From contig JAFMSR010000002.1 in the NCBI GenBank assembly GCA_022818135.1, forward strand, positions 29,464,149-29,528,148: DNA of 64,000 nucleotides, given 5' to 3'. A program made the translations under genes and the position numbers. How positions within the stretch are numbered: the first letter of the stretch is position 1; each line of letters starts with the position of its first letter. Below, in pieces: positions 18,401 through 39,400 of this stretch. The notes beneath the pieces were generated by a model. That model was not told the DNA's origin. It made no database searches and was given only the letters and a program-made list of their open reading frames with translations. This DNA comes from Saxidomus purpurata. Its lineage: Eukaryota > Mollusca > Bivalvia > Venerida > Veneridae.

Positions 18401-21400
18401 CAATAAACTATAACAGATAATCCAAAGTAACATTTTTCACCCGAAAATATTGCTGTGGTTCTAAATGACAACAGTTCATGCATTTTCAATTTTTACAAAA
18501 TCAACTAAGTTAAAACTTGTTGGCTGTCACACAGCAAGGCTCAATCTGTTTTGCATCAATGGGGGATACAGCAGTTCATAAGAAATCATGAACAAATATG
18601 ACAAATTTCTGTTTTTTATATAAGCCAAAATTACATTTGGACAGTTTAATTATTCAATATTATATACTATGTTTCAAAATAGAATTTAACTAATAAGATC
18701 CAACGATCAGAGAATACCGTTGTAGAACCTTAAGCCTTAAAGTAAAAATAATAACAACTTTGACAGATCCTTGGCCAGGCCCTGTCAATATCTAGAGACA
18801 AATATACTTGTTCTAGTAACATTTAAGTCTTAAATGTGCGGTAACATTATACTGCACATACCTGCCGATGTTAGAAAGCCTATAGCTTACATCCTTTGAT
18901 TATAACCAATTAATTGCCTTCTTAACTAAGTTACCAAAATTTAAAGCATTCATGACATCTTGAAACATTCAACAAATAAATGACATCATCACTCCAATTT
19001 CAATACTATCTGGGACAGCATTTTTCATGACTGATGTTTCTAACCGCATGAAAAATTGTTAAGGAAAAAGAACTTCCATTAATGAGTAATTTCAATTCTT
19101 TTCTAGCTGAGCCATAGAGGGGAATATTCTCAAAAAATTAACGCAACCAATGAAAAGCATATGCATGAAAAACTCCTCTCATTTTCCAAAGAATGTCAAC
19201 ACTGAGCTATTTTAAGAACATGGCATTTTCCTCTCCTCCAATCAGAAGCCAAAGAACCTCACATAGTGATATTTCAGTTGCCATCGAGCTGTAAATTTCA
19301 TGACTGACTTGAAAAATGAACCCTTGCACTCATACCATGTAGGAAACACAAAAGACGACCTGACTTGTCAAGATCACTAAAAACCAAGACGACGTGTTAG
19401 ATTTCCAATGTAATACAGTGAGCAAACTGTTCAGTACTGTACAGTTCATACAGTAACTTTTCCTACACCACTCAAACCATATATTTGACTCCAGTTTAAT
19501 GCTCTGCATGAACATGAATATTGCAAACATTCAACACATTAATTCAGGGGAGGTAACCATATTCAGCATATGCTCATCTTTACATAAAGTGAGTAGCTTT
19601 CCTATGATATTATGTAACATTCTTTGGTATGTGTTCATGTGTCCTACTTCATATATTAGAATTAACAAGTAACATATCAAGGGCAATAACTGCAATAACT
19701 CTACCTATAATTTTTATGTCATCATCATGTTAAGAAATAAATCCATTTCATACTCAATTTCACATTAATAACACTTTACTTTAAAACTACACAAACACCA
19801 TCAATTCTGCAATGTAACCCATTAAATACCAGGATTGATTAAAATACAATAAACAAGAAATATTTTTTAAAAAGAAAAAAGTCGTTGAGCCGAGGTACAT
19901 TTTAGTGCATACATAAACATTGTTCCTGGGAAAGTTATCAATGGGGAAGTCTATCATAAGATTGGCAGTTACATCATTTATCAATGAAACCAGCATGTGA
20001 TGAAGATGGTCATATACAACTTCCATTCACCGCGCGTCCATTCTTAACATTTCATTGGTGCAACCCAGCTTATTATAATAGCTTATGCCAAAATAATAAT
20101 ACAACATTGTAGGAATATTAATTTCAAAATAAACAGGGAACAAAACAGCTCAATTACCTGCAAAAAGAAATACATGATCCCAAGAGGCGGAATAACAACC
20201 AGAAACAGGTGTAACGTAGCCACAATGATGCCAAGACTTGCAATAGCTTGTAAAATCACATTTATCATGGATCGAACAGTAAACGGTACAACGTAATCAA
20301 TCTCGGCCATGTCTTCTGACAGACGATTCAGGACTCTGCCAGTTGGGTTTGAATCATGAAAGCTCATTGGCTGATGAAGAAGGCTTTTCAAAATGGCCAG
20401 ATAGAACTTTCTAGAAGCTTTGACGCCACAAATAGCCATAAGGAAAGCTGAGATGGACTCCAGCATGCCTGAAATGACATGTAGGGGTATGATATGACAT
20501 TGACAGAGAAAACTGGGATAACGTAGACGACTTCATGGACACTTGTTGCCCATGCCTGGTTCGTCAAATATCAAAACAGTGACCTGTAAGTTCTATCTGT
20601 AAGCCAGAAACAACAGTATGATGGCTAATGTTTATTAAGCAAACTTCTTCAAGCAAAAGACATTTGTTCCGCTGATATCTACTGCAATATTTCAAAATGA
20701 TGTATAAATCGAAGCCTTCCTGTAAAGGTGATACCATCTGAACATTGCATCTCACTGCTGGTAAGGTACACGCATCATGCAAACGACGCATAAGAAGATT
20801 CAACCCCATTATCTAAACAGCATGTTTGTTTCCTTAATATGATAGTTCCCTACCAAGATGATGTGTTGGAACAACTTCCTTTCATCTGTATAAGAGTGTG
20901 ACATGTGGAAGATTGAGTAAATGGAGAATCAAGCAGGGGTAATATATTATGTTAGGTAGATAGTGCGGCACTGTGTTTCATATTACATGGACTGGTCACT
21001 TTTGTAATGGATGTACTGCAAACCAATTGTCTTTCAGTTACAATTTATTTTTGTTTTATTCCACTAAGCCACTTTTGTGCAAATTTTAGGATTTTCCTGA
21101 CTTCTGAAATAAAGTTATCCCATCAAATTTCACTTTGATTATTAAAAACATGTAAACATGTAAAATCAAGAACAGACGGATGGACAGACTGGGCAAATAA
21201 AATGTCTCCCCCAAGTTGTGAGAGACAAAAATATCCTGGAATCAAGCCTGAACATGAACTGCTGGTAAAATAGCTTACAACAAGAAGTGCAAATTAGCTA
21301 CTGGTAAGGTGGAATGCATGTGTGGCAATTATAACTATGCTGAATAACATGAAGAATATTGTCATCTTTTAGTATTCCCTTTTCACACGAATGTAGCATA

Positions 21401-36400: not shown

Positions 36401-39400
36401 AATATATTTAAAAATCCTATTTGAAAGTAAGGTAATCACGTTATTTAGTCTTTTCCAGAGACTGATATAGCCACAGCATGTTCACTGTATGACTAGGGTA
36501 CGGGTCTGTAAAAAATTTATTTCCTTCACTTTCAACATTTATAGACAGAATGATTGTTGGGATATTAAAGAAAATTTGTTTTATTGTGTTTTACATGTTT
36601 TATTTTTATTCCTAATTTACATCTAAAATTCCTAGGCAAACTCAAAACAAATCTACCTAGGTGTCCTTTGTTTGAGAATGTAATGTTGGTTTACTCTCAA
36701 TATATATTTACAGAAGCATTTGTCACTAACCTGCACAGCAACGTAGACTATTGCCATGGGAACTAGTGTAGCAAGTATCAAAGGTGTGCTGTACCCTATC
36801 ACAATGGGTACAGTTAAAATCTGCAGAACTACGCTAATCCATGATCGCACAGTCTGCGCAAGTGTCACGTCAATAAGATCGATATCCTTGCCGAACCGGT
36901 TGAGTATCCTACCAGAGGGAGTCGTATCAAAAAACGACATAGGAGATGCAACTATGTTTCCCAGAATTGCCCTATGCAGACGGCGGCCGGCCCGCACATT
37001 TCCAATATACAAACTTAGCACAGCACTTAACAGAAATGCCCCTGAAATACATCTTTTAATTTTGTCGACAATATTTCTAAAGAATCTCTGATTAAAGTAC
37101 ACACAAGGTAACATAAAGTTCAACTTCTACTTCTGTGTAATTGTAGTTTGAATAAAGCAACTGGTTAAAGTCTGCCTGCATCAATGATATCTTAGGTTGT
37201 ATACCAAACGATGAATCAACTACTTAAAAGAAAGAAAACAAGACTTTAACCAGCTGTTACAAAGCGGGTTACAAGCAACTTGCGATTAAAAGATACCTAA
37301 ACAAAAACAGGCTTTTTTATGGGATAGACACTTTTAGTACAATTATGCCTGTGTTTGTATACTTTCATCCTACATTTCGAAAGTATTATCAATCACAGAG
37401 CAGTATCGACTGCACTTTGGTAAAATAATAACTTTACTGAGTCAGTTATAAATAGGGGAACAATGCTGATTTACAAAAGAATAATTTCAAACACAAATTA
37501 GATTAATGTTCATTTTGATTCAAATATCTTGATGCCTGAGCATTTTATTTTTATACATGCATGAAAATGAACACTAACCTATACTTAGAATCTGATGCAG
37601 TGAACTCGGACAGATTTAAGAAAACAACAGATCCTGAAGAACATTAAGTGGTTTGTCTGAGTTATACATGGGTTACACTGATTACGCACATGTATGCAGC
37701 ACAGAGTTAAATTATATAAATAGTTAGCTTTAAGATTAGCCAGTTTTAAATATTTTTTTTAATTATACGTTAAGTTAACTTTTAACATTTTACATATAAT
37801 TTAAAATCTTTTCTAATTAGTATTTTACAAATAGCTTGAGTACGTATTGGACATTTTGGAATTCTTCCTTTGTACTCTTAGACCTTGACCCAAATTATGA
37901 TGCCTTGACTTTTATACTTTTAAGTGTTTTTAGAAAACTTCTAGCCACTATTTAGCACACTAAATTCCAACTTTTGGTTTAAACATCTACAGCTAGCAAA
38001 CTGCATGCACAAGCACTCAACAGAATCTAAGGGAGACACAATTATCTAACCCTTGGACTACTTAATTTCTGGAAAGATCTTTTCCATCTTTCAATTTGGA
38101 CATCTTGGACAGTACCATTATCTGTTCAAACAGGTGCCCACTGAAAACTTACTGACTGAATAGTGAGCAGCTGCACATACCTAGATCAGACTGCATGACT
38201 GTGCATGATCATGATCTACACTGGTATTTAAGGCAGAATCATTTGCCACCAGGAGGGCAGAAATAAACCACCGGCCATTTCAGAGTAATTGCAAAAATAC
38301 TTGAATTTTATCTATTATAATCACTGACTTCCTTCAGAATATTACTCCGTTTATAAACCAAAAGCTTATAATTCAGACTGAGAATCTTTTATTTAGTTTC
38401 ATGTTTGAAAAAAACCCAGCCCAATTAGCCTCTTACAAAATTATTTGAACATTTCAAGATGAGAAATTTGGAAGCCCTTGGTATATCTAAATTTTCTTCA
38501 ATCTAAGATTCCCACATTGTTACCTACAAAGGATTTGACAATTTGATATTGTTACAGCTATATTTTTGGTTATTTGAGTTGTGGGGTTATACTGATTCTG
38601 AAACTGCTGAATCCCCCTTCCATAAAACAAATACACAACCATGCCAACTGGTGCACTAACTAACCTGAATGACCACGTACACTATCGTTACAGGCAGAAG
38701 CACTGTCAAAAACAAGGGCGTGCTATATCCTATCACTATTGGCACACAGAGCACACGCAGCAGGGACGTGAACCAGGCCTGGAAGTTGACTGCTATCAGT
38801 GTATCTATCACATCTAAGTCTTTACTGAATCGATTTAATATCCTTCCCCCTGGGGTCGTGTCGAAAAAAGACATCGGGGATGCGACTATGTTTCTTATTA
38901 TTCCCAAATGCAGACTTCGACCGGCTCTGACATTGCCAATAAACAGTGAAATACTTGCCACCATTATGAACACACCTAAAACATCAAACTGTTTTTTACA
39001 AGTATACCATGTATAAAATGCATTTCTGGAGAGAAAAAGTGAGTAGATTTCTAAACAGTTAATATGATATAGTTACGCTAATTCAAAAGCAGTCATATAA
39101 TAAATTGTTAAGTGTCAATACAAATTATACATGTATTAGCAGTTTCCATGCCATAATGTCACACTAAAATAATAAGTACATCATTTAACCATATATACTT
39201 TTTTCTCTCTTTAATTAATATGTCCTTTTCCCTGTTTTAGTAGGAAACTTAAATTATTTTTAAAATTATTTTTGGTTCTTACCAATGATTATAACACATT
39301 ATTTAACCTGAAAACTTCGTCTAAATCCAACCCTAAAAACCTCAGCACTTGAGCGACTGTTACAGACATACTAGCTACACAATGCACTGCTGGGGCAACT

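Follow-up and report, generated by a model that had tools for sequence, protein, structure and literature searches.

The window analysed here, a 64-kb stretch of DNA from the clam Saxidomus purpurata, holds part of an MRP1/ABCC-type transporter gene in which six minus-strand exons of exactly 311 nt lie in tandem between exons E and F (Table 1). The original prediction of an MRP1-like transporter is borne out, the best NCBIfam model for the gene being TIGR00957 (MRP), which scores 752 bits over model positions 699-1265. This score lies below the whole-protein cut-off of 1470, against 2044 for the relative in Mercenaria mercenaria, because the gene is only partially contained in the window. A tblastn search of the window with the Mercenaria protein (E 1e-3) matched residues 698-1304 only, and exons for TMD0, TMD1 and NBD2 were not found in the 64 kb by this search. 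Over 395 constant residues the clam gene and the Mercenaria MRP1-like protein are 92% identical, and a search with each of the constant exons A, B, C, E, F, G and H gave a single full match in the window, all others being weak (E 0.31 to 0.82). The apparent frame slip at a C run in linker exon D, upstream of the array, is either an artefact of the assembly or a true defect of the gene.

Table 1. Constant and alternative exons of the MRP1-like gene in the window, in order of transcription.
Feature	Position	Strand	Remarks
Constant exon A (NBD1)	46967..47143	-	one full match
Constant exon B (NBD1 signature LSGGQ)	46349..46516	-	one full match
Constant exon C (end of NBD1)	45350..45530	-	one full match
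Small linker exon C2	44600..44671 (approximate boundaries)	-	71% match to Mercenaria residues 873-896
Linker exon D	43628..43887 (approximate boundaries)	-	apparent frame slip inside, at C run
Constant exon E (TM12 region)	43218..43446	-	229 nt, ends in phase 1; splice sites; one full match
Alternative exon copy 1 (W1)	38665..38975	-	311 nt; AG/GT sites, open frame; Mercenaria isoform X2 segment 83% identical
Alternative exon copy 2 (W2)	36731..37041	-	311 nt; AG/GT sites, open frame; closest of the six to isoform X5 of Mercenaria, 78%
Alternative exon copy 3 (W3)	33618..33928	-	311 nt; AG/GT sites, open frame; Mercenaria isoform X1 segment 87% identical
Alternative exon copy 4 (W4)	25380..25690	-	311 nt; AG/GT sites, open frame; groups with exon-sized ORF P0046, support 100
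Alternative exon copy 5 (W5)	22892..23202	-	311 nt; AG/GT sites, open frame; closest copy to Mercenaria X3 and Ruditapes X5, 61% each
Alternative exon copy 6 (W6)	20158..20468	-	311 nt; AG/GT sites, open frame; divergent type also present in gastropods
Constant exon F, after array	17324..17523	-	200 nt, begins in phase 0; splice sites; one full match
Constant exon G (TM16-17 region)	16458..16584	-	one full match
Constant exon H	15362..15463	-	one full match

Structure and coding potential of the array

All six copies are entered in phase 1 and left in phase 0, are preceded by AG and followed by GT, encode a glycine at the first junction, and are open when joined between exon E and exons F, G and H; the six exons are as the original prediction described them. 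Each yields 104 residues (the junction glycine plus 103) for one and the same position in the protein. Protein identity is 51-66% within copies 1-5 and 30-35% between these and copy 6. Between copies, 58-71% of third codon positions differ and 18-43% of second positions, a pattern as expected of coding copies under constraint. Chance open frames can be rejected as an explanation, since only 3 of 3095 overlapping 309-nt intronic stretches of the array region, read in one frame each, are open, which puts six aligned open copies far beyond chance. A six-frame profile search of the 64-kb window found neither a seventh nor a decayed copy, the next matches having E values of at least 0.78.

Probable use of one copy at a time

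The reading frame penalizes double inclusion and skipping, as the original prediction held. When two copies are joined in series the second is misread and meets a stop within 78 nt of its start in all 15 pairs, and skipping all copies leads to a stop about ten codons past the junction. The argument needs refinement for four copies in series, which by length alone would bring back the outer frame; here too, however, the second copy would be read out of frame and run into a stop inside those 78 nt.

The Mercenaria gene is of the same kind, and its isoforms vary only in this segment; four isoforms were fetched as against six clam copies. In all six pairwise comparisons of these NCBI predictions (X1, X2, X3 and X5, of 1563 aa each) every difference falls between residues 1060 and 1160, which lie within the exon; NCBI isoform models of this kind generally draw on RNA reads. 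X1, X2, X5 and X3 are closest to clam copies 3, 1, 2 and 5, respectively (identities in Table 1). X5 nevertheless sits with the open reading frame (ORF) P0034 in the tree, so that copy 2 is no more than its possible orthologue; copy 2 itself pairs with ORF P0013, with a support of 100 in the ORF tree and 78.5/73 in the tree of proteins and ORFs. Among 40 full-length matches named as molluscan, 37 contain exactly one copy, without gaps, and the other three are predicted proteins with two or three serial copies (Mizuhopecten P0131, Nucella P0133 and Elysia P0162), which are probably prediction errors. Exon-sized ORFs of this kind also occur several to a contig, two contigs, of lengths 8057546 and 121472, having four listed for each if a contig can be told by its printed length; the seven ORFs from these contigs that were placed in the tree belong to different clades within each contig.

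The isoforms that differ only in this exon, together with the frame logic, make it very likely that the six exons form a mutually exclusive cluster, and lend support to the predicted choice of exactly one of six. Each mature mRNA would take one 311-nt exon; RNAs with two serial copies or none would give no full protein and are expected to decay.

Two other accounts of the array deserve consideration. Some copies might go unused, copy 4 or copy 6 in particular being silent relics or of negligible use; these two are closest to none of the four fetched Mercenaria isoforms, and copy 6 is strongly divergent from the rest. Yet both are open, of exact length and with intact splice sites, and both look conserved by virtue of their relatives (ORF P0046, grouped with copy 4 with a support of 100 and 78% identical, and ORF P0121, grouped with copy 6 with a support of 99 and 83% identical), while a copy-6-type exon is present in a predicted NCBI isoform of Biomphalaria; we consider silence of either copy improbable. 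It is much harder still to believe that separate paralogous genes or haplotypes were collapsed into one locus by the assembly. Nothing in the 64-kb window speaks for a collapse, and against it stand the single full matches of the seven constant exons searched, the lack of any N from 15362 to 47143, with both N gaps (14003-14502 and 47560-48059) outside the array, the several copies likewise listed for other contigs, and the 34-70% protein difference between copies, which is too much for haplotypes.

How a mutually exclusive choice is enforced can be narrowed down in part. The introns separating the copies range from 1623 to 7927 nt and are GT-AG throughout, so that neither steric exclusion by a too-short intron nor a mixture of U2 and U12 introns accounts for the exclusion. 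Competing RNA pairing within introns, or splicing repressors, would probably be responsible. A search for docking sites paired the first or last intron with the upstream or downstream flanks of the copies, giving four combinations with six shuffles each. Three of these were no better than their own shuffles; the last intron with the downstream flanks beat its six shuffles, with the best docking candidate near 17708-17737, and compared with random window stretches it has family-wise P values of 0.039 (summed energy), 0.059 (fifth-best) and 0.11 (normalised). Allowing for four looks, no significant Dscam-type pairing of docking site and selector was found in the introns of the window.

Two exon types and the age of copy 6

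Phylogenetic reconstruction used an ORF tree, from which 8 of 125 fetched ORFs were left out for their length, and a tree of proteins and ORFs that combined the six exons of the window with 19 ORFs and with 56 hand-chosen proteins of the 120 full-length ones listed. Copies 1-5 share one type, which has expanded in bivalves; copy 6 belongs to a separate and probably older type. Its clade (support 99.5/100) also contains three ORFs of bivalve type and a single exon from each of Haliotis, Biomphalaria and Elysia. A 14-position motif is confined to this group, being present in 9 of 251 sequences, five of which had been retrieved with copy 6 as the query. The predicted Biomphalaria isoforms X3 and X2 differ at the segment, and by a 7-residue indel elsewhere, and between them they carry both exon types, one apiece. 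It is this grouping of copy 6 with gastropod exons, and the presence of both types in Biomphalaria isoforms, that is new here.

The copy-6 type and a second type may accordingly predate the split of bivalves and gastropods, to judge from these sequence groupings. We lean slightly towards an array that joins two exon types between which the bivalve-gastropod ancestor could already choose, one conserved as copy 6 and the other expanded to five copies in this clam lineage. An origin of the entire array within bivalves, with convergence or long-branch attraction making copy 6 resemble the gastropod exons, seems to us unlikely but deserves weight. The deep nodes of the tree are weakly supported, and forcing the gastropod exons into one clade gives a tree that the AU test does not reject (p 0.113). 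An origin inside bivalves has to contend, on the other hand, with the strongly supported copy 6 and gastropod clade, with the motif (its partial recovery by the copy-6 search notwithstanding), and with the worse trees that result from constraining all bivalve exons to a single clade (AU p 2.8e-5) or from constraining copy 6 to join the other heterodont exons (AU p 0.014, although the SH test, with p 0.095, does not reject this). In our first tree tests the constrained trees came from a fast search, and the differences turned out too large; the second set relied on full searches, with three of the constraints kept and a broader one in place of the fourth, and gastropod monophyly was then no longer rejected. 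In this second set, constraining copy 6 to stay with the gastropod exons improved on the starting tree by 14 log units, so that the starting tree fell short of the best one obtained.

Bivalves and gastropods last shared an ancestor about half a billion years ago. If the two types were indeed alternative in that ancestor, exclusive choice in one transporter has been kept for about that long, the view of every MRP cluster as a lineage-specific invention needs correcting, and a conserved pair of isoforms can be tested for in snails and clams.

Other MRP clusters and the swapped segment

The clam array is a known kind of cluster, already in print for MRP genes, including those of molluscs. The expectation that the arrangement had gone unreported in molluscs is not supported, as the relevant passage of PMC7434440 lists molluscs, with reference to Yue et al. 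2017, among the groups with mutually exclusive exons in MRP genes; PMC7434440 and PMC6071210 both refer to Yue et al. 2017 (RNA Biol) for such exons in mrp-1 of molluscs, annelids and helminths. In the titles, abstract openings and passages searched we met neither a mollusc MRP array of this layout nor the deep copy-6 type, and Yue et al. 2017 may contain either. Going by their published descriptions, Drosophila MRP has tandem exclusive exons in the region of the second membrane domain that the clam array also encodes (eight exons in the count of PMC6071210), and C. elegans mrp-1 has tandem duplicated exons which, according to a figure legend in PMC9741552, affect the same structural region as in the fly but arose by unrelated duplications. 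The passage of PMC7434440 on origins has the MRP clusters arising independently in each lineage, whereas copy 6 of the clam points to an exon type common to bivalves and gastropods.

A matching cluster is indicated in Mercenaria by the isoforms, and insects show a shorter repeat unit. In five insect predictions (three from Anopheles, one from Timema and one from Ladona) repetition stops at profile positions 62-86 and the remainder of the segment occurs once, these boundaries being deduced from repeated profile matches rather than genomic DNA, whereas in the clam the repeat takes in the complete exon of 103 residues. The clam unit is therefore not that of the insect MRP array, which, given its shorter repeat, looks independent. 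Of the two origins that had been offered, independent of insects or shared with them, the evidence leans towards independence; within molluscs there are indications that copy 6 is of common descent. With whole-exon units in molluscs and apparently amphioxus, and shorter ones in insects, there is a case for asking why one MRP exon has multiplied repeatedly.

The swapped segment runs, by human numbering, from late TM13 through a cytoplasmic loop and TM14 up to TM15. By choosing among the exons, the clam could make as many as six forms of a single export pump from one gene, and a wider range of substrates, as the original prediction had it, may follow. One of the 14 MRP1 residues put forward as contacts of leukotriene C4, M1092, lies in the segment; swapping would alter TM14, including this position, and leave the remaining proposed pocket residues, which lie outside the segment, as they are. 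This distribution suggests that the isoforms are not wholly different pumps but probably vary in substrate preference or coupling. Segment position 66, equated with bovine M1092 from ranges of equal length, is A, S, M, Y, G and S in copies 1 to 6, respectively.

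Six exons of equal length and their frame

All six exons of the original prediction were recovered at their predicted positions, each 311 nt long, preceded by AG and followed by GT. Exon E begins a Gly codon that is finished by the first two bases of each copy, and the final base of each copy closes a codon, such that exon F continues in phase 0. With a single copy, the join of E, the copy, F, G and H reads through 323 codons without a stop in all six cases. As predicted, inclusion of two copies or skipping of all breaks the frame: in every one of the 15 ordered pairs, the second copy in series meets a stop 6 to 78 nt from its start, and when no copy is included a stop comes about ten codons beyond the E/F junction. 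Four copies restore the outer frame by length, yet the second copy is already misread. Presumably one copy would be chosen by competition, and faulty RNAs would be lost.

Features of the transporter gene and of the intron between copies 3 and 4; tree partners (labels of matched ORFs) and support are from the ORF tree
Feature	Position	Strand	Residue at segment position 66	Tree partner	Support
Linker exon	43628-43887				
Exon E	43218-43446	minus			
Copy 1	38665-38975	minus	A	P0001 and P0007	95
Copy 2	36731-37041	minus	S	P0013	100
Copy 3	33618-33928	minus	M	P0023	within group of 100
Copy 4	25380-25690	minus	Y	P0046	100
Copy 5	22892-23202	minus	G	P0045	81
Copy 6	20158-20468	minus	S	P0121	99
Exon F	17324-17523	minus			
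Exon G	16458-16584	minus			
Exon H	15362-15463	minus			
Similar stretch, tandem units of ~166 nt	26292-27615				
Similar stretch, tandem units of ~166 nt	31268-32410				
Repeat runs of ~31 nt and related 61-nt repeat	31057-31183, 32949-33381				

Only 3 of 3095 overlapping 309-nt intron stretches from the same region are open in the frame read. Protein identity is 51-66% among copies 1-5 and 30-35% between these and copy 6; the DNA of the copies is 45-62% alike, with differences concentrated at third codon positions, and the adjoining intron sequence is dissimilar between copies (28-43% in the 60 nt on each side). A six-frame profile search of the window found the six copies only, the next matches having E-values of 0.78 or worse, and 15362 to 47143 contains no N. 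Each of seven constant exons is matched in full once in the window, the remaining matches being weak (E 0.31 to 0.82); one of 31% to exon E at 18816-19001 is taken as chance.

The top NCBIfam model for the gene is TIGR00957, MRP. In its constant exons the gene is 92% identical to both Mercenaria and Ruditapes; identity falls to 85-86% with Mya and Dreissena and to 67-77% with four further bivalves tried, values that make a heterodont clam close to the venerids the probable source. Comparison with the Mercenaria protein locates exons from NBD1 (residue 698) through residue 1304, and parts before and after these residues were not found in the window. In the linker exon this protein is matched in different frames up- and downstream of a C run at about 43827, an apparent frame slip that is perhaps an assembly error.

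The two similar 1.1-1.3 kb stretches in the long copy 3/copy 4 intron, pieces of which are 95-99% identical, look like a mobile element, and a similar reading frame lies in the vicinity of 54277-54495.

Related exons in other molluscs

The proposed search of other bivalves for matching clusters turned up what appear to be further contigs with several ORFs as well as predicted Mercenaria isoforms. A search for exon-sized ORFs with copy 1 (best 120 of 402 matches listed) found many in which the segment, the 103 residues encoded by one copy, ends in Q then V, the pattern of the window copies, in which the GT donor comes right after the Q; others continue unbroken. Two other contigs, if length identifies a contig (8057546 and 121472), carry at least four such ORFs each among the matches listed; the four of the first fall into four tree clades and three of the second into three, its fourth being too short for the tree. 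Since each window copy groups with ORFs of other sources, the array likely predates the divergence of these animals.

Among the best 120 of 7962 scored full-length protein matches are Mercenaria predicted isoforms X1, X2, X3 and X5, each of 1563 residues and apparently from one contig, whose differences are confined to residues 1060-1160 in 6/6 pairwise comparisons, the segment being 1059-1161. The nearest copies are copy 1 for X2 (83%), copy 3 for X1 (87%), copy 2 for X5 (78%) and copy 5 for X3 (61%); the X5 pairing is unsettled because a tree of 87 segments places X5 with ORF P0034 (91.1/71), not copy 2. Of 40 predicted full-length proteins named molluscan among the matches listed, 37 have one gapless copy and three have copies in series (Mizuhopecten P0131, two; Nucella P0133, three; Elysia P0162, two).

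Copy 6 matched five ORFs in its own search, one of which, P0124, apparently shares a contig (length 197409) with P0029, an ORF of the other type. The 87-segment tree puts copy 6 and three of the five ORFs in a cluster (99.5/100) with a single exon from each of three gastropods, Haliotis asinina (X3), Biomphalaria glabrata (X2) and Elysia marginata. Biomphalaria predicted isoform X3 has the other exon type, and differs from X2 solely at the segment and through an indel of 7 residues at position 883. The motif A[ED][LI]D....F[ST].RSM is present in 9 of the 251 sequences, each of them a member of the copy-6/gastropod group; five of the nine came from the copy-6 search itself. In constrained-tree tests with full searches, uniting all bivalve exons was rejected (AU p 2.8e-5), and uniting copy 6 with the other heterodont exons failed the AU test (p 0.014) though not the SH test (0.095); uniting the gastropod exons was not rejected (AU p 0.113). 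Clade, motif and topology tests together make a shared ancestry of copy 6 and the gastropod exons probable, though not proven.

Comparison with other animals and published cases

The original prediction knew of no such six-copy arrangement in a mollusc; a passage of PMC7434440, citing Yue et al. 2017, states that exclusive mrp-1 exons, exactly equal in length, have separate origins in helminths, annelids and molluscs, and a figure legend of PMC9741552 describes fly and worm events as unrelated yet coincident in structure. With these cases in print, the clam array is of an already published kind; what goes beyond the literature found is that copy 6 may be very old.

Whether the array is shared with insects or independent had been left as alternatives, and the evidence leans towards independence. 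In five insect predictions that string copies together (three Anopheles, one Timema, one Ladona) the unit that recurs runs from profile positions 2-12 to 62-86 (most ends lie at 72-79), the remainder of the segment following once, whereas the clam unit comprises all 103 positions. Because the unit ends differ, the two arrays probably derive from different exon units. Insect MRP1 uses docking sites downstream of the exon cluster, according to a section of PMC6071210; in our docking-site search the best candidate, near 17708-17737, fails correction for four looks.

Branchiostoma lanceolatum MRP1-like predicted isoforms X4 and X1 (P0208/P0241) differ only at residues 1094-1188, within the same segment. 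Seven predicted fish proteins (P0143, P0180, P0183, P0195, P0204, P0206, P0228), two of them named canalicular multispecific organic anion transporter 2, have two whole or partial segment copies in series, a hint that tandem exons may occur in vertebrates as well.

Swapped residues and the substrate pocket

Residues 7-103 of copy 1 match two MRP1 chains, one of 1530 residues at 1033-1129 and one of 1531 residues at 1034-1130; the matched ranges have the same length, which suggests a gapless alignment. A portion of PMC8267652 proposes 14 residues as leukotriene C4 contacts in MRP1, and its table equates bovine M1092 with human M1093. This offset of one agrees with the two chain matches and places the M1092 equivalent at segment position 66. 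M1092, in TM14, is the sole one of the 14 proposed contacts inside the segment. Within positions 61-83, which we take to be the TM14 stretch, 0/23 residues are invariant across the copies, compared with 1/18 in positions 1-18, 11/42 in 19-60 and 4/20 in 84-103. Given the position of M1092 and a TM14 without invariant residues, it is plausible that swapping the segment tunes one side of the pocket, or coupling.

We note that MRP isoforms of Zophobas (P0237/P0244) and Spodoptera (P0236/P0245) differ instead within part of the first membrane domain, at residues about 547-595, which would include pocket residues T550, W553 and F594 if their numbering is near that of MRP1.
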